NCBI RefSeq assembly: GCF_000012865.1
Contig: NC_007503.1
Span: 1,116,001 to 1,180,000 of the forward strand
DNA from: Carboxydothermus hydrogenoformans Z-2901
GTDB taxonomy: Bacteria; Bacillota; Z-2901; Carboxydothermales; Carboxydothermaceae
DNA length: 64,000 nt
Direction: 5' to 3'
How positions within the stretch are numbered: the stretch's first letter is position 1; every line of letters begins with the position of its first letter. Both the position numbers and the translations under genes were made by a program. Positions 14,807 to 56,608 of the stretch are shown one piece after another. Under the pieces are notes generated by a model. That model was not told the DNA's origin. It worked only from the letters and a program-made list of their open reading frames with translations, and ran no database searches.

Positions 14807-16060
14807 ATGAGTATTTCTAATAACTTAATGGAGAAAGGTTATAATATTGGCGAAAGCTTTAAAGAACTCGTTAAAAATCTTTCTTTTCCCGGCTTAACTA
14901 CTGGATTAATCGGTGCGTTATTTAGTAGCATGGGGCCGGGCTTGATTGTGATGAGCGCGGCCAAGCAAGGTAACCTTCCTGATGATATTGCAGTGTCCTG
15001 GATTTTTGCGATCTTTTTCTTTGCTGGGTTAGCGACGATGTTTGTTTCACTTTACTATCGCGTTCCCCTCGTGATAGCTTACAGTATACCAGGTTCAGTT
15101 CTAATTGGCAAGTACTTGGCATCTGGTGGGAATATACACGAAGCGGTCGGTGTTTATTTTAGCATAGCTGTGCTTGTTATTATCCTTACGGCTACAGGTG
15201 CTATTAAAGCTGTTATCGAACATATTCCGATTCCTATAATGCTGGGGATGGTTGGCGGAGTACTTTTGAGCTTTGGATTAAATGCTTTTACAAGTGCTTT
15301 GACCACGCCTGCAGTTTATGGCATAATGGTAATTATTTATTTTATATGGTACTATTTTAAAGGGTTATCAAGTAAGATACCTGGAGTTGTGGTATCACTG
15401 ATTGTTGGTGTACTATTGCTGAAATACTTTGGATTAACCAAGAATGTTCCTATACAATGGGAAGTTGCAAAGCCTGTAATTGTTTCTCCTAGTTTTAGTT
15501 TAAAAGGTTTACTCACCTTGGGAGTTCCACTGTTCTTTATGGTAGTTGGTGTCCAAAACATCCAAGCAGTTGGGGTATTATTATCCAGGGGATATAAGCC
15601 ACCAATAAATGCAATGTATTTTATTCCCTCGATTGCTACATTTTTTAATGGTTTGTTTGCTGGTCACACTGCAGTAACGGCAGGACCAAGTACAGCTATT
15701 TGTTCTAGTGATATTGCAGGGCCCAAAGAGTACCGCTGGATTGCTTCTTTCTTTGAAGGAGTTTTTTGGGTATTGGTGGGCTTATTAGCGAAAGTTGGGG
15801 TTGAAAGTGCGAAGTTGGCTCCCAAGGAATTTATGCAAGTCATTGCTGGCTTAGCTATGTTTGAAGTATTTATAAGTGTTTTTGAAGGGGCATTTAGTCA
15901 AAAGTTTCGCAAGGGAGCGATGGTAGCATTCTTTGTGGCTGCCAGCGGTATTTCTTTATTTAATATTGGCGCTCCTTTCTGGGCAATTGTATTTGGCGTC
16001 ATAGCTTCACTGATAGCTGAAAATGGTGATTTTAAAAAAATAAATAATGAACAGCAATAA
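14807..16060 (+). CDS. BenE-like benzoate/H+ symporter family permease
   Basis: Integral membrane protein (417 residues) with about eleven or twelve hydrophobic segments. It resembles the BenE family of aromatic-acid/proton symporters: a PGLTTGLIGALFSSMGPGL start, VSWIFAIFFFAGLATM, YSIPGSVLIGKYL and AGHTAVTAGPSTAIC. It lies just after two putative IclR operators and ahead of genes for the lower meta-cleavage route, so import of an aromatic or cyclic carboxylate is likely. The identity of the compound is unknown. A strong terminator follows it, so the M24 gene downstream may be read separately. Confidence 0.75.
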   Translation: MSISNNLMEKGYNIGESFKELVKNLSFPGLTTGLIGALFSSMGPGLIVMSAAKQGNLPDDIAVSWIFAIFFFAGLATMFVSLYYRVPLVIAYSIPGSVLIGKYLASGGNIHEAVGVYFSIAVLVIILTATGAIKAVIEHIPIPIMLGMVGGVLLSFGLNAFTSALTTPAVYGIMVIIYFIWYYFKGLSSKIPGVVVSLIVGVLLLKYFGLTKNVPIQWEVAKPVIVSPSFSLKGLLTLGVPLFFMVVGVQNIQAVGVLLSRGYKPPINAMYFIPSIATFFNGLFAGHTAVTAGPSTAICSSDIAGPKEYRWIASFFEGVFWVLVGLLAKVGVESAKLAPKEFMQVIAGLAMFEVFISVFEGAFSQKFRKGAMVAFFVAASGISLFNIGAPFWAIVFGVIASLIAENGDFKKINNEQQ

Positions 16061-16138: not shown

Positions 16139-16169
16139 GCAAACTTAAGAATTGAAAGAAGGTGTTAAT

Positions 16170-17273
16170 TTGAAGGATAAGTTAATTCATCGGATAAAAA
16201 AAATACAGAATCTAATGGCCAAAAAAGATATAGATATTTTGGTGGTAGTAAATCGCGAAAACCTAATTTATTTTACCGGCTTAACGCAAATTGAATGTAT
16301 GGCTGTTTTAATTCCATTAAAAGATGACCCATGTGCTATAACGCTTTGGCTTGATGCTGATTACGTAGAGCAAGAATCAGGTTTAAAAACTTTTGGTTAT
16401 TTCTTTCCCAAAGAAAGCTTGGGAAGTAAGGTTGTGGAGCGAATCAAGGCTTATGGTTTTCGCGCTCCCCGGATTGGATTTGAAAGATATTTTGTGCCTT
16501 TTGCTTTTTATGATGTTTTGCGGCAAAACTTTCCGGAGTCAAACTTTGTTGATGCGGCTGATTTATTTTACCGTGTCCGGGCTGTTAAGGAGCCGAATGA
16601 AGTGGAAATGATTCGGAGAGCAGCTTTTGCTGTTTGTAAGGGAATGGAGGCTGCTATAAAAACAATAAAGCCGGGAATAAGTGAGCTCGATGTATTGGCA
16701 GAAGCTGAATACGCTATGTTAAAGGCGGGTTCAAATGGTTTACCTTTTCGACCGCAAATTGTTTCCGGTAATCGTTGCCTGCTTACCCACCCTCATGCAA
16801 GTACTAAATTAATTGAAGAAGGCGAGGTAGTTGTTGTTCACCTCGGTGCAACTTACAATGGTTATTGTGCCAAAATGTGTCGCACTGTTGCTGTAGGAGA
16901 AATTTCTGCTGCACATGAAAAGGTATTTAATCTTTTGTTAGAAGCACAGGAAAAAGCCATTGCGGCTTTGAGGCCTGGTTCAAAAGCCTGGGAAGTGGAT
17001 GAGGCTGCCAGAGAAGTGATCAGAAGGGCAGGTTTTGAGGAATACTATCTTGATGTTATAGGATATGGGGTTGGATTACGGCAATCGGAATTTTACCCAA
17101 TTATCGGAAAAGGACGTCAGGATATTATTGAGGTTGGAATGGTAGTAGATTTATTATTACCAACTATATATCATCGGGACGTCGGAGGACCAAGGATAAC
17201 GGATGTAATTTATGTCGGTGAAAATGAAAATGAAATATTAACCGGCTATCCAAGAAAATTGATTAAAGTATAA
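16170..17273 (+). CDS. M24-family creatinase/prolidase-like protein without metal ligands
   Basis: Pita-bread-fold protein (367 residues): an N-terminal creatinase domain (1-130) and a C-terminal M24 domain. In metallopeptidases of this fold the core has DxG, DxxRT, HGxG, and two glutamates. Here the matching segments read VVHLGATYNGY, AKMCRTVAV, YGVGLRQSE and PRITDV, so the two Asp, the His and the last Glu seem to be gone. This resembles creatinase, which hydrolyses a C-N bond without metal. The TTG at 16170 follows AGAAGGTG. Its position in the IclR-linked cluster suggests hydrolysis of a nitrogen-containing precursor, but the substrate cannot be named. Confidence 0.75.
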   Translation: MKDKLIHRIKKIQNLMAKKDIDILVVVNRENLIYFTGLTQIECMAVLIPLKDDPCAITLWLDADYVEQESGLKTFGYFFPKESLGSKVVERIKAYGFRAPRIGFERYFVPFAFYDVLRQNFPESNFVDAADLFYRVRAVKEPNEVEMIRRAAFAVCKGMEAAIKTIKPGISELDVLAEAEYAMLKAGSNGLPFRPQIVSGNRCLLTHPHASTKLIEEGEVVVVHLGATYNGYCAKMCRTVAVGEISAAHEKVFNLLLEAQEKAIAALRPGSKAWEVDEAAREVIRRAGFEEYYLDVIGYGVGLRQSEFYPIIGKGRQDIIEVGMVVDLLLPTIYHRDVGGPRITDVIYVGENENEILTGYPRKLIKV

Positions 17274-17417: not shown

Positions 17418-18203
17418 ATGAAAAAAAACAATAACGATACTCTTATTCAATCGGTTGATCGGGCTTTAAGAATATTAGATACTTTTAGCCTTAAAGAAAA
17501 GGAATTAGGTGTTACGGAAATTGCCAATCGTTTAGGCTTGCATAAAAGTACTGTCTTTGGGTTACTCAGGACCCTTGAACATTGGGGATATGTTGAACAA
17601 AACCAAGTTACAGGAAAATACCGTCTAGGTCTTAAGTTATTAGAATTGGGTAATCGAGTAAAAGAAGGCTTAGATTTACGGGCGGTAGCTTTGCCATTTT
17701 TACAGGATCTTGTTGAAAGATACGGTGAAACCGTTCATTTGGCTGTTCACGACCGGGGAGAAATTGTCTATATTGAAAAAGTGGAAGGACCAAATGCTAT
17801 TCGAATGTACTCGCAAATTGGGCGACGGGCTCCAATGCATTGTACAGGTGTAGGTAAAGCTATCCTTGCTTTTAGACCCGAGAAGGAAATAGAGGAAATA
17901 ATTCGCACCAAGGGGCTTAAATATTTTACTCCTAACACGATTACAGATCCCAAGAAACTACATGAAGAACTAAGTTTGATTAGGGAAAATGGTTATAGTC
18001 TTGACAGAGAGGAAATTGAGATAGGGTTAAGATGCGTTGCAGCTCCTATCAGGGATAGTCAAAATACAGTTGTTGCAGCTATTAGTGTTGCTGGTCCTTC
18101 AATACGCATGACCGAGGAGAAAATACAGGAATTAATTGTTAGTGTTAAAGAAGCTGCCTTAGAAATATCAAAGCGTTTGGGCTATCAAACATCAAGTAGG
18201 TAG
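17418..18203 (+). CDS. IclR-family transcriptional regulator
   Basis: DNA-binding regulator (261 residues). The N-terminal winged helix-turn-helix is at 12-70 (TEIANRLGLHKSTVFGLLR), and the C-terminal effector domain has LRAVALPFLQDLVERYGETV, RRAPMHCTGVGKAILAF and the Cys-containing IGLRCVAAPI. IclR proteins answer small carboxylates, often intermediates of aromatic breakdown. Three copies of a 17-bp palindrome lie at 14508, 14573 and 18253, ahead of the transporter and ferredoxin genes, and are the best candidates for its operators. ATG 17418 follows GGAAGG. Confidence 0.92.
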   Translation: MKKNNNDTLIQSVDRALRILDTFSLKEKELGVTEIANRLGLHKSTVFGLLRTLEHWGYVEQNQVTGKYRLGLKLLELGNRVKEGLDLRAVALPFLQDLVERYGETVHLAVHDRGEIVYIEKVEGPNAIRMYSQIGRRAPMHCTGVGKAILAFRPEKEIEEIIRTKGLKYFTPNTITDPKKLHEELSLIRENGYSLDREEIEIGLRCVAAPIRDSQNTVVAAISVAGPSIRMTEEKIQELIVSVKEAALEISKRLGYQTSSR

Positions 18204-18389: not shown

Positions 18390-19007
18390 ATGCGAGTTGT
18401 TAATATGCTTGCGCAGATTGATTATGATAAGTGTATTGGATGTCAGACATGTGCTAAAGTTTGCCCGGTTTTGGCTATCAAAATTGAGAATAAAAAACCG
18501 GTAATCAATGCTGAAATGTGTAGAGGCTGTGCAGCTTGTGAGCAGAGATGTCCGCAATATGCCATAAATATGGTAAAAAGGGAAGAACCTTTTACAGTTT
18601 ATGTTGATCCTTCAACAGTAGATGCAGAAAAAATTGAGGAATTATGTAAAAAAGCCCGCCTCCATCCGGAACAAATTATTTGTTATTGTACTGCGACCAG
18701 AGCTGAAGAAGTTGCGGCAGCTATTTTAAAAGGTGCTAAATCACCGGAAGAAATTTCCTTACAAACAGGTGTTCGCACAGGGTGTAAGGTCGAATGCATT
18801 GAGCCAATTTTACGGTTACTGGAAGCTGCGGGCATTACTCCTGAAAAACCAGAGGGCTATCAATGGTATGGAAGAACACCCACAGTTTGGGAAATTCCTG
18901 AAAGCGTAAAAGAAAAATATTCAAGTAGAGGGTTCTATTTTGACGAAGATATTAAATTACTGGACAAAGTTTTAGCGGCAAAAAGCAGCAGAAAGGAGGA
19001 TAAGTAA
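18390..19007 (+). CDS. Two-[4Fe-4S] ferredoxin fused to a BFD-like [2Fe-2S] domain
   Basis: A 205-residue electron-transfer protein. Two 4Fe-4S motifs, CIGCQTCAKVCP and CRGCAACEQRCP, fill residues 10-60. A second domain with CYC near 94 and GCKVEC near 132 matches the bacterioferritin-associated ferredoxin [2Fe-2S] pattern (CxC and a later CxxxC). The gene ends directly at the start of the LarA-like gene (no gap), so the two are translationally linked and probably work together. This suggests a redox step, or protection of an oxygen-sensitive partner, around the LarA-like enzyme. The tail after residue 150 is not recognised. Confidence 0.82.
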   Translation: MRVVNMLAQIDYDKCIGCQTCAKVCPVLAIKIENKKPVINAEMCRGCAACEQRCPQYAINMVKREEPFTVYVDPSTVDAEKIEELCKKARLHPEQIICYCTATRAEEVAAAILKGAKSPEEISLQTGVRTGCKVECIEPILRLLEAAGITPEKPEGYQWYGRTPTVWEIPESVKEKYSSRGFYFDEDIKLLDKVLAAKSSRKEDK

Positions 19008-20447
19008 ATGGCTGCTAAGGTAATTCCCCCGATTAAACCAAGAGTTTCGCAATATGGTGTTGATCCCAAGTATGTGACCAAAAGAATTTCGGATTATCCG
19101 GAAATGACAAGTGTAAAGCTAAAAGAATTGTTCGCGGATACCCCGGATGTGATTTATCCTTCGGAAAAAGGGATTGCGGTGATTCGCGAAAATGTTATTA
19201 AGGCTCTGGAAAAAGTTGATATGAGCATGATAAAACCAGGTGATTCGGTTAACATCCTGGCATCCCATCATGGATTTACCTTGCTTGGCGGTGAACCCTA
19301 TGCTGAGGTATTAAAGACGGTAAGGGAAGTTATTGTCGAAAGAACGGGAGCAACGGATATAAGACTGCGGGCAGGAGTTGGGTTACGCTTCAGGGAAACA
19401 GAGGAATATATTAAAGCCTTTGGTTTAGATGTAGCATTTAACGGAAAAGCCAAAGGGGTAGCTCCCATAGATAAAGGAATACCAATTGAGACCGAGATAG
19501 GAACTCTTTATGGAATTGCAGCGGTCTACGATGCGGACTGGATTGTCCATGTCCATAACAGCGACGTACGTGAAGTCCACTTCCACCGGCACGTTGACCG
19601 GGCAGTAAAGCCGTTTGGTATGTCCTATGCCCGGATAGAGACCAGATCAACGTATCACCAAAACCTTGGGCCCAGAGGAGCAAATTTCACAGCGCGGGCA
19701 ATTTTTGCCTCCGAGTTCGTGCAAAGTAAATTTGCCTTTGCAACTTTCATGAATATGTCACCGGCAGGAGTAGTATCTATTGAAGCCGATAATGACCTTC
19801 TCGCTTTGAACGAAAAAATTACTGCTGATGGTTTGCGGTACTACGGGAAGATTATGACCTTGCTTGGTGAAATTGACGAATGTATAGCAGGCTTGGATTT
19901 TCCTGCACCCGTTCCGTATGTTTTTGCTGCGGGAGTAATTTTTGCTAACTTTGTTGGAGCAAACGTTGATCTTTTTGACCTGGATAACCCTCTTCCACCG
20001 TACACCTGGTATACTGAAGCTTTTTACGATAAGTCAGGGAAGCCATTAATTGAAAATGTACCCCCAGTAAATCCTGCCATTAAAATGGTTGTCCATAATT
20101 ATGCCTGGGGTGGATATCCCAGCGCGTTTTTTGCCCATCAAATACCTACTGTAGTAGTTGGGCGGGAGCAAGCTGACTTGATGGACCGAGATCCGCAAAA
20201 CTTGGATTATATGAAGTATGCAGTTATTGCCAGGGACTTAGATTCGGCAATGGCTTATGCTTATAAAGTAGCAAAAACGGATAAGGTTATCATTTTTGAC
20301 GGGGCTGCTGGTGGTTTGAACTGTAGTGAAAGCTTGGCTGAATATTTGAAAGCAAAAGCTCCCGAAGTAAGTAGAAGAGTAGACCAGGAGTTGCTGCCCA
20401 AGTGGTTACGTCAGCGGGGGATTGATCCCAACGTTTTTAATAAATAA
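19008..20447 (+). CDS. LarA-superfamily (nickel-pincer nucleotide) enzyme, divergent
   Basis: A 479-residue soluble protein that I assign to the lactate racemase (LarA) superfamily by pattern. Lactate racemase binds its nickel-pincer cofactor through H174, K184 and H200; here H191, K201 and H217 have exactly the same spacing (10 and 16). The N-terminal layout also fits: a strand-helix unit (VNILASHHGF, then TDIRLRAGVGL), where the LarA motif TGLHR reads VGLRFR, so the first catalytic His appears to be Arg (R127). The cofactor genes larEBC lie 5 kb downstream. It follows the ferredoxin/BFD gene without a gap. Likely reaction: racemisation, epimerisation or another hydride-transfer step on a hydroxyacid. 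Substrate unknown; assignment needs a profile search. Confidence 0.65.
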   Translation: MAAKVIPPIKPRVSQYGVDPKYVTKRISDYPEMTSVKLKELFADTPDVIYPSEKGIAVIRENVIKALEKVDMSMIKPGDSVNILASHHGFTLLGGEPYAEVLKTVREVIVERTGATDIRLRAGVGLRFRETEEYIKAFGLDVAFNGKAKGVAPIDKGIPIETEIGTLYGIAAVYDADWIVHVHNSDVREVHFHRHVDRAVKPFGMSYARIETRSTYHQNLGPRGANFTARAIFASEFVQSKFAFATFMNMSPAGVVSIEADNDLLALNEKITADGLRYYGKIMTLLGEIDECIAGLDFPAPVPYVFAAGVIFANFVGANVDLFDLDNPLPPYTWYTEAFYDKSGKPLIENVPPVNPAIKMVVHNYAWGGYPSAFFAHQIPTVVVGREQADLMDRDPQNLDYMKYAVIARDLDSAMAYAYKVAKTDKVIIFDGAAGGLNCSESLAEYLKAKAPEVSRRVDQELLPKWLRQRGIDPNVFNK

Positions 20448-20551: not shown

Positions 20552-20582
20552 CCATTTTTAAAATTGGATTGTGGAGGCAAAT

Positions 20583-21422
20583 ATGAATTTCAATAACTCT
20601 GGAGATATTCGCGATATCTTATTTTCTAAAATAATGCAAAAGCATTTCACAGCTCAGATTAAAGCTGAAAATGGCGGGATTATTGCTGGTGCCCAAAATG
20701 CATATAATGCTTTGAAACAACTTGGTTTAGAAATCGAATATTTTGTTTATGACGGAACGGAAGTCCAGCCGGAAACAGTTATTGCCCGTTTTAAAGGAAA
20801 TCCCAAACAAATTGCGCAAGCGGAAGAAGTAGTAATGGGTTATTTAATGAAAACTTCCGGGATTGCTACTGCCACCCGGAGGGCGATTAATTTAGCCGAA
20901 GGCAAGATCAGGATTGTTTCCGGGGCATGGAAAAAGATGCCTTCCGAAATGAAGCAATTAGTAAGGGAAGCGATTGCTGTTGGTGGCGGAGCTTTTCGCA
21001 TACTTGATGTTCCCTTTGTTTATTTGGACAAGAATTATATTCGCATGTTTGGAAGTATCGTTGAAGCATTAAAGAGTGCCCAGGTATTTGGTGATAGGTA
21101 TAAAGTAGTTCAGTTAAGAGGCGAAATGAAAGACATTAAAGAGGAAGCAATTGAAGCGGCTACAAATGGAGCTTATGTGCTCATGGTAGATACAGGCAAA
21201 ATTTCTGACGTTAAAATTGTTAATAGTACGTTGGAAGAGCTTGGGCTAAGAAAAGAAAAGCTTGTAGCTTTTGCAGGAGGAGTAAAAATTAATGCTATTC
21301 CTAGTTATATTGGTTTAGGGATAGATATTCTCGATATAGGATCCGAAATAGTTGATGCGCCACTAATGGATATGAAATTAGATGTAATAAGCGAAGGAAA
21401 GGAGGGAGAGGATGGAACTTAA
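20583..21422 (+). CDS. Divergent NadC-like phosphoribosyltransferase
   Basis: A 279-residue member of the quinolinate phosphoribosyltransferase fold. The family segment LMKTSGIATATRRAI is clear, and the barrel end has FAGGVKINAI and GIDILDIGSEI. But the substrate-binding parts differ: the NadC LDTRKT stretch reads VSGAWKKMP, NHR reads AFR, and the VEVE glutamates read QLRGE. So it probably does not use quinolinate. It could handle another pyridine carboxylate, or be a ModD-like relative of unknown role. The ATG at 20583 follows GTGGAGG. It overlaps the MoCF gene by 11 bp. Since the NPN cofactor is built on a nicotinate nucleotide, a link to larEBC is worth testing. Confidence 0.7.
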   Translation: MNFNNSGDIRDILFSKIMQKHFTAQIKAENGGIIAGAQNAYNALKQLGLEIEYFVYDGTEVQPETVIARFKGNPKQIAQAEEVVMGYLMKTSGIATATRRAINLAEGKIRIVSGAWKKMPSEMKQLVREAIAVGGGAFRILDVPFVYLDKNYIRMFGSIVEALKSAQVFGDRYKVVQLRGEMKDIKEEAIEAATNGAYVLMVDTGKISDVKIVNSTLEELGLRKEKLVAFAGGVKINAIPSYIGLGIDILDIGSEIVDAPLMDMKLDVISEGKEGEDGT

Positions 21423-22302
21423 CCTTTTAGAAAAGACAGAACTGTGGATTGAAAATATCAAATTACAAAATGCTAATTTATCAACAATTGCCGAAGTTGT
21501 GGCCGATGTTCTTGAAATCCCGAAGGATAAAGTACTTGTGGTGGATGTCAGGGAAAATCATATTACTTTAGACATTTTACAAAAAACAATTCAGGCTGAA
21601 CAGGTATTTGGCAAAAAGCAACAATTATTAAAAAAGCTGTCGGAAATACCGGGAGTTAATATCGTACCGGAAACTGACATTCATTCGGAAGGCATATTGG
21701 GCTTTATTTCCCTTGATGAATCCGAGGTACCTCAGGTTTTAGCGAGAACCGAAAAGATTGTTGATGAAATAAAAATGAAGATTGCGAAAAGAGTTATTGT
21801 TTTCCCGACAGGTTTTGAAGTTAAAAGGGGAATGATTGCTGATACCAATACCCCGTATATTATACAGCGGATGACCGAAGCTGGTTATAAAGTAACTAAG
21901 GGAGAAATTCTGGATGATTCTGCTGATTATATTGCAGCGAAGTTAAATGATGCCGTAAATTCTGGCTACGGATTAATAATTACTACTGGGGGTATTGGAG
22001 CTGAAGATAAAGACAGGACGGTTGAGGGAGTTTTACTTGTAGACCCGCAAGCAGCAACTCCTTATATTGTTAAGTACCAGCAAGGAACGGGACGCCATGA
22101 AAAAAATGGCGTGCGAATTGCTGTTGGTATGGTGGGAAACAGTTTAATTGTCTCTCTGCCAGGGCCACATGATGAAGTTAAATTAGCTCTGGATGTGCTT
22201 ATAAGGGCTCTTGATGAGGGGAAAAGCAAGGAAGAAATTGCCCAGGAAATTGCCGGTGTTTTGCGGGCTAAATTGCAAGCGGCAGGTTTTAAACATCATT
22301 AA
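21412..22302 (+). CDS. MoCF/CinA-like molybdopterin-binding-domain protein
   Basis: A 296-residue protein whose C-terminal half is a MoCF_biosynth (MogA/CinA) domain: TGFEVKRGMIADTNTPYI near 140, IITTGGIGAEDKDRTVEGV near 193 and a VSLPGPHDEV end. The first 135 residues form another alpha/beta part that I do not recognise. Despite the domain name, members of such catabolic clusters need not bind molybdopterin. A shorter relative occurs at 50256 beside the second LarA homologue. It starts inside the end of the NadC-like gene (GGAGGGAGAGG before ATG), and mhpD follows after 23 bp. Confidence 0.72.
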   Translation: MELNLLEKTELWIENIKLQNANLSTIAEVVADVLEIPKDKVLVVDVRENHITLDILQKTIQAEQVFGKKQQLLKKLSEIPGVNIVPETDIHSEGILGFISLDESEVPQVLARTEKIVDEIKMKIAKRVIVFPTGFEVKRGMIADTNTPYIIQRMTEAGYKVTKGEILDDSADYIAAKLNDAVNSGYGLIITTGGIGAEDKDRTVEGVLLVDPQAATPYIVKYQQGTGRHEKNGVRIAVGMVGNSLIVSLPGPHDEVKLALDVLIRALDEGKSKEEIAQEIAGVLRAKLQAAGFKHH

Positions 22303-22325: not shown

Positions 22326-23114
22326 ATGGATAAAACTGCTTTACAAGTAGCAGCGGAAGCGCTCTGGAAAGCCTGTCAAGAAAGAAAAGCATTAGAACAG
22401 CCTTTAACGGAAATTTATCCTGATATTACTATTACGGATGCTTACCAGATTCAGTTAATTAATGTAGACAAGAAAAAAGCTCTGGGACGTAAAGTTGTTG
22501 GTAAAAAAATAGGTTTAACCAGCCGGGCAATGCAGCAAATGTTAGGAGTTCATGAGCCGGATTACGGGCATGTAACTGATGACATGATTGGCGATGAAGA
22601 GGTTGCTATTTCTCGTTCCAAATTATTGCAACCCAAAATTGAAGCGGAAATTGCTTTTGTTTTAAAGGACAGGCTTGTAGGTCCTGGAGTTACTTTAACG
22701 AAAGTATTGCAAGCGACAGCAGGAGTAATTCCAGTATTTGAAATAATTGATAGCCGGATTAAAGACTGGAAGATTAAGATTCAGGATACTATTGCCGATA
22801 ATGCTTCCAGTGCGATGGTTGTTTTAGGAAGTAAATTAATACCGGTAGATCAGGTTAATCTTAAATATGTTGGGTTAGTATTAGAAAAAAATGGAGAGAT
22901 TATTGATACCGCGGCCGGAGCTGCGGTTTTAGGGCACCCTGCATTAGCTGTTGCCTGGCTTGCCAATAAACTTTCCGAGTTTGGTATTGCCTTGGAACCG
23001 GGGGAGATTATTTTATCCGGTTCGCTGACTAAAGCGTATGAAGTTACCGGTAATGACCATTTTGTTGCCAATTTCGGGCCTCTTGGTTCGGTTAAAGTAA
23101 AATTTACTGATTAA
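22326..23114 (+). CDS. mhpD: 2-keto-4-pentenoate hydratase, copy 1
   Basis: Hydratase (262 residues) of the MhpD/DmpE family in the fumarylacetoacetate hydrolase superfamily. It adds water to 2-hydroxypenta-2,4-dienoate to give 4-hydroxy-2-oxopentanoate. Visible features are GKKIGLTSRAMQQMLGVHEPDYG, KIEAEIAFVL (metal-binding glutamates) and AAGAAVLGHPALAVAWLAN. Related decarboxylases (DmpH) share this fold, so 4-oxalocrotonate decarboxylation is an alternative. It is followed by mhpF and mhpE in the usual order. A nearly identical copy lies at 62909; only about the first 12 codons and one codon at 22434 differ. Confidence 0.9.
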   Translation: MDKTALQVAAEALWKACQERKALEQPLTEIYPDITITDAYQIQLINVDKKKALGRKVVGKKIGLTSRAMQQMLGVHEPDYGHVTDDMIGDEEVAISRSKLLQPKIEAEIAFVLKDRLVGPGVTLTKVLQATAGVIPVFEIIDSRIKDWKIKIQDTIADNASSAMVVLGSKLIPVDQVNLKYVGLVLEKNGEIIDTAAGAAVLGHPALAVAWLANKLSEFGIALEPGEIILSGSLTKAYEVTGNDHFVANFGPLGSVKVKFTD

Positions 23115-23121: not shown

Positions 23122-23149
23122 AAATTAATACGGCAAAGGAGTGAAGCAA

Positions 23150-24049
23150 ATGTCGAACAAAATTAAAGCTGCCATTATCGGTCCTGGCAATATCGGGATG
23201 GATTTAATGTTTAAATTAATGAGAAGTAAATATATTGATGTTGACACAGTTGTTGGCATTATTCCGGAATCGGAAGGATTGGCATTGGCTAGAAAGCATG
23301 GAAAGAAGACTAGTGCTGAAGGAATAAAAGCAATTTTAGGAAATAAGGATATTAAAATCGTTTTTGATGCTACCAGTGCCAAAGCTCATTTAAAACACGC
23401 TCCTTTATTAGAACAAGATGGTAAAATTGCTATCGACCTGACACCTGCAGCAGTTGGTCCTTATTGTGTTCCTGCAGTAACTATGGAGGAACAATTAAAT
23501 TGCAAAAATGTTAATATGGTTACTTGTGCCGGACAAGCTACTACTCCAATTGTTTATGCAATTAACAAAATTGCCGATGTAAAATATGCTGAAATAGTAG
23601 CTACAATAAGTAGCCGGAGTGCTGGTCCAGGAACGCGGCAGAATATTGACGAATTTACCGAAACTACGGCAAAAGCCCTGGAAAAAATTGGCGGGGCCGA
23701 TAAAGGAAAAGCAATAATTATTCTTAACCCGGCTGAACCGCCAATTATGATGCGAAACACTATTTACACCCGGGTAGCAAATCCGGATGCTCCTGGAATT
23801 ATCGAGGCAATTGAAGAAATGGTGGGGAAGATCAAAAAATACGTTCCTGGTTATCGCTTGAAAGTTCCTCCAATCATTGATGGAGATAAGATTACCACAA
23901 TAATTGAAGTTGAAGGTGAGGGGGCCTATTTGCCTAAATATGCCGGTAATCTTGATATAATCACCGCAGCAGCAGTAGCTTTTGCTGATGAAGTAGCTAA
24001 AAAGTTGCTGGCTGAGGAGCAAGCTAAGGAGGTTAGAGCACATGGCTAA
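23150..24049 (+). CDS. mhpF: Acetaldehyde dehydrogenase (acylating)
   Basis: NAD- and CoA-dependent enzyme (299 residues) that turns acetaldehyde into acetyl-CoA. The Rossmann start [13 protein letters not shown], the catalytic cysteine in [15 protein letters not shown] (near 125) and the dimer part [15 protein letters not shown] are family hallmarks (MhpF/DmpF). The enzyme normally channels acetaldehyde from the MhpE aldolase, encoded next with an 8-bp overlap. ATG 23150 follows AAAGGAGTG. The pair yields pyruvate and acetyl-CoA from 4-hydroxy-2-oxopentanoate. Confidence 0.94.
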
Positions 24050-25052
24050 AAAGATTAGGATAATTGACAGTACCTTAAGAGATGGAATGCATGCGGTAAG
24101 TCACCAGTTCACACCCGAGGAAATGGCAGAAATTGCAGCAGGACTGGATGCGGCAGGGATTGACACCATTGAAGTGAGCCATGGTGATGGATTAGGTGGT
24201 TCGAGCTACAATTATGGATTTGCGGCTGCAAAAGATGAAGATTATTTAAAAGCGGTATCTCAAGTTTTAAAAAATTCAAAGTTAGGTGTCCTTTTGCTGC
24301 CAGGAATTGGTACTGCTCATGATTTAGAGATGGCTGCAAAATTTGGTGCAAAAGTTGTGCGAGTTGCTACCCACTGTACGGAAGCCGATATTGGCGAACA
24401 GCATATCAAGATTGCCAAAGAATTAGGAATGGAAGCCATTGGATTTCTAATGATGAGCCATATGGTTCCTCCAGAAAAACTTGTGGAGCAAGCGAAATTG
24501 TTTGAAAGTTATGGAGCAGATGCGGTTTATATTACAGATTCTGCTGGAGCAATGACTCCGTATGATGTTAAGGTGCGCATTGAAGCGGTTAAAGCTGCTG
24601 TTAGCGTGCCTGTTGGGTTTCATGCTCACAATAATTTAGGGTTAGCGATTGGTAATACTCTGGCAGCTATCGAAGCTGGAGCAACTTATGTTGACGGCAC
24701 CGCGCGAGGACTTGGAGCAGGGGCCGGAAATTCACAAACGGAAATTTTGGTTGCTGTTCTGGCGAAGTTAGGTTATGAAACTGGTGTTGATTTGTATAAA
24801 ATTATGGATGTAGCAGAAGAAGTTGTTGCTCCTAAAATGAGAAGACCGCAAATTGTTGATAAAGCGGCATTAAGTTTAGGTTATGCGGGTGTTTACGGAA
24901 GCTTTCTCTTACATGCTATGCGGGCCGCAGAAAAGTTTAAAGTTGATGTTCGTGATATTTTAATCGAGTTAGGAAGATTAAAAACTGTTGGCGGGCAAGA
25001 AGATATGATAGTTGATGTTGCCTATGAATTAAGTAAAGCAAATAAGCAATAA
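24042..25052 (+). CDS. mhpE: 4-hydroxy-2-oxovalerate aldolase
   Basis: Metal-dependent aldolase (336 residues) of the HMG-CoA lyase-like/DRE-TIM family. It cleaves 4-hydroxy-2-oxopentanoate into pyruvate and acetaldehyde. [17 protein letters not shown] at the N-terminus holds the DRE-type motif and general-base region, and [20 protein letters not shown] supplies the two metal-binding His. The C-terminal communication domain used to contact the dehydrogenase is present ([19 protein letters not shown]). Translationally coupled with mhpF. No ring-cleaving dioxygenase is nearby, so the substrate must arise by another route. Confidence 0.94.
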
Positions 25053-25118: not shown

Positions 25119-25160
25119 AAAGCAGGCCAGAAGAACTCTGGCCTGCTTTAGCGGTTTTTT
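25119..25160 (+). terminator. Terminator after mhpE
   Basis: AAAGCAGGCCAG (25119-25130) pairs with CTGGCCTGCTTT (25138-25149), with a T6 run at 25155-25160. It separates the catabolic operon from the lar genes. Confidence 0.88.
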
Positions 25161-25275: not shown

Positions 25276-26103
25276 ATGGAACAGGTCAGAAGACACAAGC
25301 TTGAGAAACTACAAAATATTTTACAGGAAATGGGGAGTGTCGTGATTGCTTTTTCAGGGGGTGTTGACAGTACCTTTCTCTTAAAAGTTGCAAAAGATGT
25401 ACTGGGAGATAACGTGCTTGCTGTTACCGCAACTTCATCAACTTATCCGGCCATAGAACTGGAAGAAGCAAAAAAATTGGCCCAAACTTTTGGAGTTCGC
25501 CATCTTATTATTGAATCAGAAGAGTTGGATATTAAAGAGTTTGTCAATAACCCACCCAATCGTTGTTATTTCTGCAAAAAAGAGTTGTTTTCAAAGCTTC
25601 TACAGGTTGCAAAAAAAGAAGGATTTTCTTTTGTTTTAGATGGGTCCAACGCTGACGATTTAAATGACTTTCGCCCCGGGATGGAAGCGGCTAAAGAGTT
25701 AGGAGTGCGAAGTCCTCTAAAAGAAGCGGGCTTAAAAAAAGACGATATTAGGTACCTATCTAAGGAAATGGGGTTACCTACATGGAATAAGCCATCCTTT
25801 GCCTGTTTAAGTTCACGTTTTCCTTATGGGACAAAAATAACAAAAGAAAAATTAAATCAAGTTGATAGAGGAGAAAACTTTTTGAGAGCGCTCGGGTTTC
25901 AGCAAATTCGTTTAAGACATCATGGCGAAATTGCCCGGATTGAGATAAAAAGAGAACAATTTCCCCTATTAATAGAGAAAGCTCAAGAGATAGTGGAGAA
26001 GTTAAAAGACTGCGGTTTTACCTATGTAACATTGGATCTTGAAGGTTATCGAACCGGAAGTATGAATGAACCTCTTTTAAGAAAGGGCGAACTTTATGAA
26101 TGA
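25276..26103 (+). CDS. larE: LarE, sulfur transferase for the nickel-pincer cofactor
   Basis: PP-loop ATPase (275 residues) that adenylates the nicotinate-derived dicarboxylate mononucleotide and installs sulfur to form the pincer thiocarboxylates. The PP-loop [13 protein letters not shown] is at about 24-36. C177, in [14 protein letters not shown], matches the sulfur-donor C176 of Lactobacillus LarE. Two further cysteines, C97 and C100 in CYFC, suggest the [4Fe-4S]-type LarE, in which three cysteines bind a cluster that relays sulfur. ATG 25276 follows GGAGG. It overlaps larB by 8 bp. Confidence 0.92.
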
Positions 26104-26857
26104 AAAAAAGCTTCGTCAATTACTTATTAGCATTCAAAATAAAGAAATTAGTATAGATGAAGGAATAGCAAGATTAAAAGGTTTACCGTTTGATGATTTA
26201 GGCTTTGCAAAAGTTGATCATCACCGGCAATTACGCCAGGGGTTTCCTGAAGTCGTTTATTGTGCGGGAAAAACCAAGGAGCAGATAGTAGCAATAATGG
26301 AAAACCTGGTAAATAAATCAGAAAATAATATTTTAGCAACAAGAGCATCACGGGAAGTTTATGAAGCGGTAGCTAAAAAAATACCGGATGCGGTGTATTA
26401 CGAATTAGCAAGGGCTATAGTAGTCTGGCGGGGAGAACAAGAAAAACGAGGGCATATACTGGTTATAAGTGCGGGAACTTCCGATATTCCGGTAGCCGAG
26501 GAAGCAGTAATAACAGCAGAAGTTATGGGAAACCGGGTGGAACGTCTTTATGATACGGGAGTTGCCGGAATTCATCGCTTGTTAAGTCAAAAAGAGAAAC
26601 TATTTGCAGCAAGAGTTTTAATTGTAGTAGCCGGAATGGAAGGAGCCTTAGCCAGTGTAGTTGCCGGATTAGTAGACAAGCCGGTAATAGCAGTACCAAC
26701 AAGTGTTGGTTATGGAGCAAATTTTGGGGGACTTTCGGCTTTGCTTACTATGCTTAACAGCTGTGCCAGTGGAGTCGGTGTGGTGAATATTGATAATGGT
26801 TTTGGAGCCGGATATTTAGCAAGTTTAATAAATCGATTGGGAGAGGTTGAGTCATGA
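26096..26857 (+). CDS. larB: LarB, nicotinate-adenine-dinucleotide carboxylase/hydrolase
   Basis: A 253-residue protein whose C-terminal half resembles AIR carboxylase PurE ([65 protein letters not shown]). LarB carboxylates the pyridinium ring of nicotinic acid adenine dinucleotide and releases AMP, the first step of NPN synthesis. The N-terminal part includes [21 protein letters not shown], typical of LarB. It overlaps both larE (8 bp) and larC (4 bp), giving a tight larEBC set. Confidence 0.93.
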
Positions 26858-28059
26858 AAATTGCCTATTTTCATTGTTTTGCCGGAATAAGTGGTGACAT
26901 GATTTTAGGAGCTTTAATTGATGCAGGGTTGGATTTTGAACAATTAAAAGCTGACTTAGCTAAACTATCATTGGATGGTTATGAGCTACAAGTAAAAAAA
27001 GTAAAGAAACAAGGAATAAGTGCGACCAAAGTAGATGTAATAATAGAGGAGGAACATGCACACCGTCATCTTCAGGACATAAAGAAAATCATAAGTGAAA
27101 GCTCGTTACCAGAGGTAGTAAAAGAAAAGAGTATCCAAGTTTTTACCCGTTTGGCTGAGGCAGAGGCCAAGGTCCATCAAACCACATTAGAGAAGGTACA
27201 TTTTCATGAAGTGGGGGCAAAAGATGCGATAGTTGATATAGTTGGTGCAGTAATAGGGCTATGGCGCTTAGGAATAGAAGAGGTATACTCCTCGCCCATT
27301 CACACCGGGATGGGTTTTACTCAAAGTGCTCATGGGAAAATTCCCGTTCCGGCACCGGCAACCTTAGAACTTTTAAAAGGCTGTCCCATTTACAGTGAAG
27401 GTATTGAGGCAGAGCTTACAACGCCAACGGGTGCAGCAATTCTTACATCATTTTGTAAGGAATACGGAGATATGCCGCTTATGGAAGTAACCCAAATAGG
27501 TTATGGAGCTGGTGAACGGGATTTGGAGATTCCAAATGTTTTACGGTTGAGTATTGGTATTAAAAGGGAAGAAAAAGGTTTTTGCAAACATACTGAGCAA
27601 AAAAATAGCTTTCATCAGGGAGAAGCAGTAAAAATCGAAGCAAATATAGATGATATGAACCCTGAATTTTACGATTATTTAATTACCAAATTTTTAAAAG
27701 CAGGGGCAATGGATGTCTATTTGGAAAGAGTGCAGATGAAGAAAAACAGGCCAGCGATTCTGCTCAATTTGCTGGTTCATGCTCACCAAGTGGAAGAGTT
27801 TTGCCGGCTGATCTTTGCAGAGACCACCACAATTGGTGTCCGCACCTATCCGGTTAAGAAATACATGTTGCCCTATGAAATTATTTCGGTAGAAACGGAA
27901 TTTGGTCCGGTACCGGTAAAGGTAGCTAAATATCAGGGAGTTGTCCAAAACATAGCCCCCGAATATGAGGTTTGTCGAAAAATTGCCGATGAGCAGCAAA
28001 AGCCGCTTAAAGAAATTTATGATTTGGTAAAGTTCCGTGCTTATCAGAGGTTAACGTAA
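26854..28059 (+). CDS. larC: LarC, CTP-dependent nickel-inserting cyclometallase
   Basis: A 401-residue protein that inserts nickel into the pincer nucleotide. The start [21 protein letters not shown] and the [28 protein letters not shown] stretch are diagnostic. In Lactobacillus, LarC is made from two frames by ribosomal frameshifting; here both parts are in one unbroken frame. The linker has a modest Cys/His/Lys-rich segment ([13 protein letters not shown] near 245-257). The C-terminal part with [17 protein letters not shown] corresponds to LarC2. Its presence together with larE and larB shows the cell can make the complete NPN cofactor, given nickel uptake encoded elsewhere. Confidence 0.93.
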
Positions 28060-54914: not shown

Positions 54915-55298
54915 TTGGGATCTGTACGCATAATAGCTTATATAGATAAGACGGTAGTAAAAATTGTAGGATTTAAAATTGATAGAATTAATTTAATGGA
55001 AATTGAAAAAAAATTAATAGAAATATTAAAACGACCGGTGCGTGTAATTGGTGTTAGCGGAGAAAGTTTGGAATTTGATGTTTATGAATTGCCTCCGGAA
55101 CAGGTTTATAGGAATGAACGTAATATTATTGAGGCTATTGCAAATGAAGGTATAGAGGGGGTTGAAGTGGCAAAAATTGTTAAAGCCGAGCAGGTTCCGG
55201 AGGTTAATCTTGATGATTTAATATTAAAACCTGATGAAGAATATAATTGTCCAGCGGAAAGGTGGTTGCGATGGAAAAAGCTGGAGGAAGAGAAATAA
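54915..55298 (+). CDS. Uncharacterised protein upstream of the second LarA homologue
   Basis: A 127-residue protein without a recognised family. It has an N-terminal beta-type part (VRIIAYIDKTVVKIVGFKID), a second repeat-like unit (RPVRVIGVSGESLEFDVYEL) and a charged C-terminus with PAERWLRWKKLEEE. TTG 54915 is the only start after the preceding in-frame stop and has GGAGTGA before it. Its end overlaps the LarA homologue by 28 bp, so the two are tightly coupled; an accessory subunit or chaperone for that enzyme is one possibility. Confidence 0.7.
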   Translation: MGSVRIIAYIDKTVVKIVGFKIDRINLMEIEKKLIEILKRPVRVIGVSGESLEFDVYELPPEQVYRNERNIIEAIANEGIEGVEVAKIVKAEQVPEVNLDDLILKPDEEYNCPAERWLRWKKLEEEK

Positions 55299-56608
55299 AA
55301 AGTTATAACTTTTATGTTGACTTTGAGCCTATTGTGGCGCTAGTTAAAGATACGGTAATTCCCAAGATGTATAAAGTCAGGCAAAAGTTTGATGTACCGG
55401 TACTAAAAAATCCTGTTGAAAAATTAAACCAAGAACTTCGCAATAAAGAAGAAGTCATGAAAAAGTTAAAAGGAAAAAGAGTATGTATTGCGGTAGGTAG
55501 CAGAGGTATAGCGAATATTGCGGATTTTGTTGCAGAAACGGTAAAAGTAGTTAAGGATTATGGTGGAGAACCGTTTATTATTCCCGCTATGGGAAGCCAT
55601 GGCGGGGCTACCAATGAAGGACAAAAGCAGGTTTTAGAAGAGCTTGGCATAACTGAAGAAACTGTAAAAGCGCCAATTGTTTCGCATTTAGACGTAGAAT
55701 TAGTAGGGAAAACAAGGGAAAATGTCCCTGTTTATGCAAGTTGTGATGCTTTAAACGCTGATGCAGTTATCATTATAAATAGAATAAAACCTCATACATC
55801 TTTTAGCGGCGATATTGAGAGCGGTATTATAAAAATGATAGTAATAGGGCTTGGTAAGCAAAAGGGAGCCGAAGTGTGCCATAAAATGGGTTTTTATCGC
55901 TTTTCCGAACGGTTGCAAGAAATGGCTCGGGTAATTTTAACTAAAGTTCCAGTGGTTTTAGGAATAGGTTTAATAGAAAATGCCTATGATGAAACTGCTG
56001 AAGTTAAGGCGTTAACGACTGATGAGTTTTTTGTTGAAGAACCCAAACTTTTAAACCTGGCAAAATCATTAATGCCGAAAATTTTAGTAAACAATTTAGA
56101 TGTTTTAATCGTTGATGAAATAGGTAAAGATATCAGTGGAGATGGAATGGATCCAAATGTGACGGGAAGATTTGCTTCTGATTATGGAAAAGGAGATTTA
56201 ATCGTAGATAGAATAGTGGTTCTACGTCTAACCGAACGGACAGAAGGTAATGCAAATGGTATTGGTGTAGCAGATGTTACTACATTAAAGGTTTTAGAAA
56301 GTACTGATTTTACGAAAGGATATATAAATAGTATTACTGCTGCAATACCGCGTACCGTTCGTTTGCCAATGGTTATGCCTAATGACGAAATGGCAATTAA
56401 GGCAGCAATCAAAACTGCTAATAACTTTGATTATGTCGGTGAAGACACTAGAATAGTACGCATTAAAAATACTTTAAATGTAGAGCAAATTTACATTTCG
56501 CAAGCACTTTTGTCAGAAGTAAGAGCAAATTCATCATTAGAAATTGTTGATGGGCCAATTGACTTTGCTTTTGACGAAGAGGGAAATATTTTAACAGGAT
56601 GGAAATAA
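55271..56608 (+). CDS. LarA-superfamily nickel-pincer-dependent isomerase
   Basis: A 445-residue member of the lactate racemase (LarA/DUF2088) superfamily. All four LarA functional positions have counterparts: H110 in AMGSHGGAT (LarA H108, acid/base), H175 in KPHTSF (H174), K188 in GIIKM (K184, holds the cofactor) and H204 in VCHKMG (H200, nickel ligand); K188 to H204 keeps the spacing of 16. The family racemises or epimerises 2-hydroxyacids by hydride transfer. ATG 55271 follows GAAAGGTGG. Its cofactor could come from larEBC at 25-28 kb. It probably interconverts stereoisomers of a hydroxyacid in this cluster; substrate unknown. Confidence 0.82.
   Translation: MEKAGGREIKSYNFYVDFEPIVALVKDTVIPKMYKVRQKFDVPVLKNPVEKLNQELRNKEEVMKKLKGKRVCIAVGSRGIANIADFVAETVKVVKDYGGEPFIIPAMGSHGGATNEGQKQVLEELGITEETVKAPIVSHLDVELVGKTRENVPVYASCDALNADAVIIINRIKPHTSFSGDIESGIIKMIVIGLGKQKGAEVCHKMGFYRFSERLQEMARVILTKVPVVLGIGLIENAYDETAEVKALTTDEFFVEEPKLLNLAKSLMPKILVNNLDVLIVDEIGKDISGDGMDPNVTGRFASDYGKGDLIVDRIVVLRLTERTEGNANGIGVADVTTLKVLESTDFTKGYINSITAAIPRTVRLPMVMPNDEMAIKAAIKTANNFDYVGEDTRIVRIKNTLNVEQIYISQALLSEVRANSSLEIVDGPIDFAFDEEGNILTGWK

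Follow-up and report, generated by a model that had tools for sequence, protein, structure and literature searches.

In lactate racemase (LarA), Lys184 is the lysine that binds the nickel-pincer (NPN) cofactor covalently, His200 is a nickel ligand, and His108 and His174 are the catalytic histidines. Racemisation requires acid/base groups on both faces; for a one-way reductase, one is enough. So far, characterised LarA homologues have proved to be racemases or epimerases (PMC7583248, PMC11770544). In two single-histidine LarA-like proteins, LarA_Bw and LarA_Sp (PDB 9q2u, 9q3j), the H174 equivalent is missing (PMC12611868).

A literature search that reached only a minor part of subscription papers found no published enzyme for anaerobic opening of the furoate ring, so a description may exist. 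Cultures growing anaerobically on furfural have been known since the 1980s. In the aerobic furoate pathway (Trudgill, hmfABCDE) with HmfF/HmfH, furfural, HMF and FDCA enter via 2-furoate, and a review calls for alternative, oxygen-independent furan pathways (PMC6604932). The only anaerobic furoate route found in the search is a proposal for D. furfuralis which, at least as cited in PMC11384913, proceeds via 5-oxo-4,5-dihydrofuran-2-carboxylate, an oxygenated furan, and not by reductive opening. No paper joining furoate with nickel-pincer enzymes was found in the same search, with the same coverage.

Here we describe a candidate for such an enzyme, P0001 (P1), encoded in a window of 64,000 nucleotides (the whole stretch of DNA analysed) from Carboxydothermus hydrogenoformans Z-2901. 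The gene lies in the following cluster:

14807..16060, + strand: BenE-type aromatic-acid transporter, probable substrate importer (Pfam BenE, 4e-65)
16152..17273, + strand: M24 peptidase/creatinase-type hydrolase (Pfam M24, 5e-49)
17418..18203, + strand: IclR-family regulator (Pfam IclR_C, 1.5e-59)
18390..19007, + strand: Fd/BFD electron-transfer protein with two 4Fe-4S motifs and a BFD 2Fe-2S (Pfam Fer4, Fer2_BFD)
19008..20447, + strand: P0001, predicted nickel-pincer 2-furoate reductase, LarA fold (479 aa, ATG start, open frame)
20571..21422, + strand: QRPT-fold protein, NadC-like, not NadC (Pfam QRPTase, 3e-17)
21412..22302, + strand: MoCF-fold protein, MogA-like domain plus a 120-aa N-terminal domain (Pfam MoCF_biosynth, 5e-19)
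22326..23114, + strand: MhpD-type 2-hydroxypenta-2,4-dienoate hydratase (TIGR03220, 306.6 bits; subfamily level, below cut-off)
23141..24049, + strand: MhpF, acetaldehyde dehydrogenase (acetylating) (TIGR03215, 465 bits; cut-off 282)
24042..25052, + strand: MhpE, 4-hydroxy-2-oxovalerate aldolase (TIGR03217, 551 bits; cut-off 286)
25276..26103, + strand: LarE, CxxC-C type, motif read in the sequence (TIGR00268, 373 bits; cut-off 150)
26096..26857, + strand: LarB (NF033503, 309 bits; cut-off 175)
26854..28059, + strand: LarC, nickel insertion (Pfam Ni_insertion, 2e-151; TIGR00299, 229 bits; cut-off 90)

The transporter falls just under the NCBIfam benE cut-off (191.9 versus 203.4 bits), and the MhpD-type protein conserves E106, E108 and E139. 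The last base of the Fd/BFD frame immediately precedes the P0001 start, the zero gap reported by a first-pass annotation of this DNA. The same annotation placed complete cofactor genes nearby, and larE-B-C indeed begin 4.8 kb downstream of P0001 on the same strand, all above curated cut-offs. A strong terminator-like hairpin (25119-25149) separates MhpE from LarE, and larEBC may therefore be transcribed separately from the P0001 operon.

P0001 contains H191, K201 and H217 with spacings of 10 and 16, as had been claimed. The pattern H-x9-K-x15-H turns up in 1.2% of shuffled versions of the protein and by itself is poor evidence; the invariance of K201 and H217 in relatives and the fold match to LarA are what give it weight. 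Both residues are unchanged in 40 aligned relatives and in four sequences of a distant clade (about 42% identical, from the class to which an Actinomycetota MAG belongs), as is H193. Conservation of H191 stops at the main clade, the distant clade having a tyrosine there, so that the proposal that P0001 keeps the LarA cofactor residues holds for K201 and H217 and not universally for H191. K201 is predicted to occupy the cofactor-lysine position (LarA K184) and H217 the nickel-ligand position (LarA H200), with H191 and H193 as possible catalytic acids. There is no histidine between residues 96 and 180 of P0001, where a colinear alignment places the LarA GxH108R segment on residues 123-130 (GVGLRFRE), and none at this place in the distant clade either. 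H88 (SHHGF) was considered as the H108 equivalent and rejected, since the strand-helix order puts the histidine-free residues 117-137 opposite the H108 segment.

P0001 had no Pfam match even at E<=1 and none in NCBIfam or among PDB sequences, and a Lar_N search of its own genome misses it; the profile search proposed against the LarA/DUF2088 families thus returned no family match. A profile of P0001 compared by hhalign with 28 LarA sequences gave a colinear alignment at 1.4%, equal to unrelated controls and not significant. Sequence-profile proof of homology was therefore dropped, and membership in LarA rests on fold and residues. The structure prediction, also proposed earlier, did return a LarA-family fold. 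An AlphaFold2 model built from a 40-member alignment (pLDDT 88.4, pTM 0.89, with low confidence around H217) matched lactate racemase 8ezh (8e-9) and the malate racemase Mar2 structures 6d6z (2e-8) and 7s91 (5e-8) in a Foldseek search of the PDB, each with probability 1.00, and solely LarA-family entries scored below 1e-3. TM-scores against LarA were moderate (0.39-0.49). Set against the LarA/DUF2088 family (PF09861, PF21113), P0001 has the two-domain fold, counterparts of K184 and H200 (K201 and H217, spacing 16) and genomic larB, larC and larE; it does not match the family profile and lacks the full pair of catalytic histidines (H108, H174), H191 standing for H174 in the main clade only.

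By its model, P0001 is a LarA-fold protein, and it probably uses a nickel-pincer cofactor, the metal and form of which we infer. It is no ordinary racemase, because the H108-position histidine is absent and H191 is replaced in the distant clade. The first-pass annotation had noted neither of these departures and had named no substrate. Elsewhere in the window, 55247-56608 encodes another protein with a weak likeness to LarA; it hits both Lar_N and DUF362, which belong to one clan, and its neighbours are an HpaB-type flavoprotein, a subunit of a TPP enzyme and a sigma-54 activator. The source genome also encodes a classical LarA (G000:C1:56194, Lar_N 7e-78) and a second LarC (G000:C1:11520), and in five loci (L036, L048, L049, L063, L074) the P0001 operon has a classical LarA gene close by.

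A search favouring close relatives yielded 63 P0001 homologues (42-86% identical) from anaerobic Firmicutes, Deltaproteobacteria, Archaeoglobus and other archaea; no plasmid-borne annotated relative was found. The redox partner beside P0001, which the first reading had pointed out, is present in 61 of the 63 loci and immediately upstream in 55 of 61 loci with a readable upstream gene. Twelve of its cysteines (15, 18, 21, 25, 44, 47, 50, 54, 98, 100, 132 and 136) are at least 95% conserved across 59 sequences. The suggested link to an MhpD-F-E pathway is likewise conserved across Firmicutes, Deltaproteobacteria and archaea: in the 26 well-covered loci (>=7 kb on both sides), we found Fd/BFD in 26, MhpD in 25, QRPT and MoCF in 24 each, and MhpE and MhpF in 19 each. 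An IclR regulator occurs in 37 of the 63 loci, BenE homologues in 25 and an M24 hydrolase in 21; the creatinase/prolidase-type M24 gene of the window (16152-17273) recurs together with BenE. Other recurrent neighbours are UbiD (11), aldehyde:ferredoxin oxidoreductase (7), Fe-ADH (5), TRAP/TAXI transporters and Mo-hydroxylases. In three loci (L050, L068, L074), a 2-oxoacid:ferredoxin oxidoreductase lies near P0001 and MhpF/E were not seen nearby, which suggests that 4-hydroxy-2-oxovalerate is oxidised there to 3-hydroxybutyryl-CoA with ferredoxin recycling. The distant clade (L124, L125, L126, L127) keeps QRPT-Fd/BFD-P0001-MoCF and has no Mhp genes nearby. Given this absence and a 2-hydroxyglutaryl-CoA dehydratase-type gene upstream in L126 and L127, the module may belong to a different reductive pathway there.

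Because the distant clade retains QRPT and MoCF without Mhp genes, this pair goes with the enzyme and not with the pathway. The operon QRPT scores 113 bits against nadC (cut-off 198) and carries consistent substitutions at NadC motifs, with SGAWKK and FR replacing the TRKT/HR substrate motifs; its identification as NadC was rejected, and the true NadC (347 bits) is encoded elsewhere in the source genome. A model of the MoCF protein matched MogA/MoeA/CinA-type domains in Foldseek (probability 1.00) and has an extra N-terminal domain, and the protein falls below all NCBIfam cut-offs, including those of Mo-cofactor enzyme equivalogs. Among 398 genomes of the phylum, MoCF is present in 26/26 P0001 genomes (27 matches minus one short spurious), which suggests a dedicated cofactor modification; of the two genomes with MoCF only, one has a contig ending inside the operon and the other a copy that is broken and sits at a contig edge. 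QRPT is predicted to be a pyridine phosphoribosyltransferase, and MoCF an adenylyltransferase, for the cofactor. MogA adenylylates a phosphate of a metal-binding cofactor, and our leading guess, at about even odds, is therefore that the pincer nucleotide is adenylylated or made by a dedicated QRPT/MoCF route. LarC is found in 49 of 55 P0001 genomes; among 101 relatives overall it occurs in 64, including 8/8 P0001 carriers (p=0.02). L128 and L130 carry larBCE within the P0001 cluster, and L131 carries larBC there. One genome (G004) combines in one cluster AOR, LarC, LarB, LarE, M24, BenE, P0001, Fd/BFD, MhpE-F-D, MoCF, QRPT, IclR, HmfF and Fe-ADH, and in another (G164) the core of this cluster is flanked by larE, larB and larC.

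The window cluster itself has no HmfF; relatives provide the link to furans. The UbiD of a Moorella mulderi cluster (L072) scores 653 bits against PDB 6h6v and 233 against the next family. This structure is Pelotomaculum thermopropionicum HmfF, a furandicarboxylate decarboxylase whose product is 2-furoate (PMC8988006, PMC8252502). Across 113 genomes of the order Desulfotomaculales, with HmfF defined as >=59% identical, P0001 is present in 8/8 HmfF genomes compared with 13/113 overall (p=2.5e-9), and in seven of the eight the two genes are <20 kb apart on the same strand; five of the 13 P0001 genomes lack HmfF. In one genome (G567), HmfF is 100% identical to the characterised Pelotomaculum enzyme, with P0001 <20 kb away in the run IclR-Fd/BFD-P0001-QRPT-MhpD-F-E-ADH-MoCF-AOR-ADH ... 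AOR-ADH-HmfF. Taken together, loci L182 and L162 cover the P. thermopropionicum locus, IclR-Fd-P1-QRPT-MhpDFE-ADH-MoCF-AOR...AOR-ADH-HmfF.

The formula of 2-furoate (C5H4O3) plus 2H equals that of 2-hydroxypenta-2,4-dienoate (C5H6O3), the MhpD substrate, and the missing step would thus be a two-electron reductive ring opening. This step is assigned to P0001 and Fd/BFD because a hydride-transfer-type fold and a ferredoxin stand beside MhpD. The conserved cluster most likely degrades 2-furoate anaerobically; we infer the substrate from stoichiometry and context, and the direction of the P0001 reaction likewise remains an assignment. Lactate as a substrate found no support.

On balance, and by a slight preponderance, we favour ferredoxin-driven reductive ring opening of 2-furoate by a nickel-pincer P0001 as the best explanation. 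In this model, P0001 would be a LarA-fold NPN enzyme that left racemisation. Fd/BFD would pass two low-potential electrons, delivered as hydride or as electron plus proton, through the NPN pyridinium/nickel centre to 2-furoate, and cleavage of the ring O-C5 bond would give 2-hydroxypenta-2,4-dienoate. Addition of water by MhpD would yield 4-hydroxy-2-oxovalerate, which MhpE would split into pyruvate and acetaldehyde, the latter being converted to acetyl-CoA by MhpF. LarE, LarB and LarC would build the NPN cofactor, and QRPT and MoCF would probably make or finish its dedicated form by phosphoribosylation and/or adenylylation. BenE would bring furoate into the cell, and in relatives Fe-ADH, AOR or Mo-hydroxylase, and HmfF would convert furfuryl alcohol, furfural, HMF and furandicarboxylate to 2-furoate.

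Three alternatives were weighed against this model. P0001 could be a racemase or epimerase with NPN, or catalyse a redox-neutral isomerisation of a hydroxy acid in the pathway, with Fd/BFD serving another enzyme or only activating the cofactor; this would agree with the activities of all characterised LarA homologues (PMC7583248, PMC11770544) and with the existence of single-histidine LarA-like proteins (PMC12611868). However, no member has a histidine at the H108 position, the MhpD-E-F route poses no stereochemical conflict requiring a racemase, and Fd/BFD is directly upstream in 55/61 readable loci and adjoins P0001 even in the distant clade without Mhp genes. We regard this as improbable, if the likeliest of the three. 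Next in likelihood, and also improbable, is that P0001 binds, in place of the nickel-pincer, a different pyridine nucleotide cofactor made by QRPT and MoCF, while LarBCE serve other LarA proteins of the genome, such as the classical LarA of the source genome, which also has a second LarC. QRPT/MoCF do track P0001 far more tightly (26/26) than LarC does (absent from 6/55), but the LarC-negative genomes are mostly MAGs, where absence is weak evidence; moreover, the invariant residues are exactly the NPN-anchoring lysine and histidine of LarA, and larBCE or larBC lie within the P0001 cluster in several lineages.

The least likely alternative keeps the enzyme type and changes the substrate to another five-membered heteroaromatic acid, pyrrole-2-carboxylate or a related ring. 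Reduction with loss of ammonia would also lead to 2-oxopent-4-enoate, with the same carbon skeleton and redox balance, a C-N hydrolase-type M24 gene recurs, and the Pelotomaculum HmfF also tolerates pyrrole-2-carboxylate (PMC8252502). Against this, HmfF is by far the better match of the operon UbiD (653 bits, versus ~122 for pyrrole-2-carboxylate decarboxylase entries), the alcohol and aldehyde oxidoreductases suit furfuryl alcohol, furfural and HMF, and there is no conserved ammonia-handling gene.

If P0001 works with ferredoxin as in the favoured furoate model, the NPN cofactor would be extended to net reduction and ring cleavage. More tentatively, and with the balance somewhat against it, P0001 could be the first enzyme of the nickel-pincer type to carry out net redox chemistry, an FeS-wired protein using a modified (e.g. 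adenylylated) NPN from QRPT/MoCF plus LarBCE for furan ring opening; if true, this would bring to light a new form of the cofactor as well as the anaerobic furan pathway that has been missing. The cluster is a concrete, testable gene set that bears on lignocellulose inhibitors and furan plastics.

Compared with known systems, P0001 shares with LarA (5HUQ, 8EZH) and Mar2 (6D6Z) the two-domain fold, the lysine and nickel-ligand histidine positions with 16-residue spacing, and LarBCE genes nearby; its main clade also matches the H174 spacing of LarA. It differs from them in having no detectable sequence similarity, no H108 equivalent, an obligate Fd/BFD partner together with QRPT and MoCF, and a place in a degradative pathway that would consume electrons overall. 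LarA_Bw and LarA_Sp, like P0001, combine the LarA fold with one of the two catalytic histidines, but they lack the H174 equivalent whereas P0001 lacks that of H108, and a LarA sequence search finds them and misses P0001. MoCF and QRPT have the folds of the MogA/MoeA and NadC families, respectively, but fall below curated cut-offs, have altered active-site motifs, and are inherited with P0001 and not with molybdenum or NAD synthesis. The immediate window cluster encodes no CoA ligase/furoyl-CoA synthetase or furoyl-CoA dehydrogenase. The aerobic furoate pathway shares HmfF and the 2-furoate entry point with the proposed route, but passes through furoyl-CoA and C5 hydroxylation to 2-oxoglutarate, whereas the P0001 route would end in pyruvate and acetyl-CoA. 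The meta-cleavage lower pathway (MhpD-F-E/DmpEFG) uses the same three enzymes to convert 2-hydroxypentadienoate to pyruvate and acetyl-CoA; there the substrate is supplied by an extradiol dioxygenase, whereas the P0001 pathway would feed MhpD by an anaerobic reductive step.
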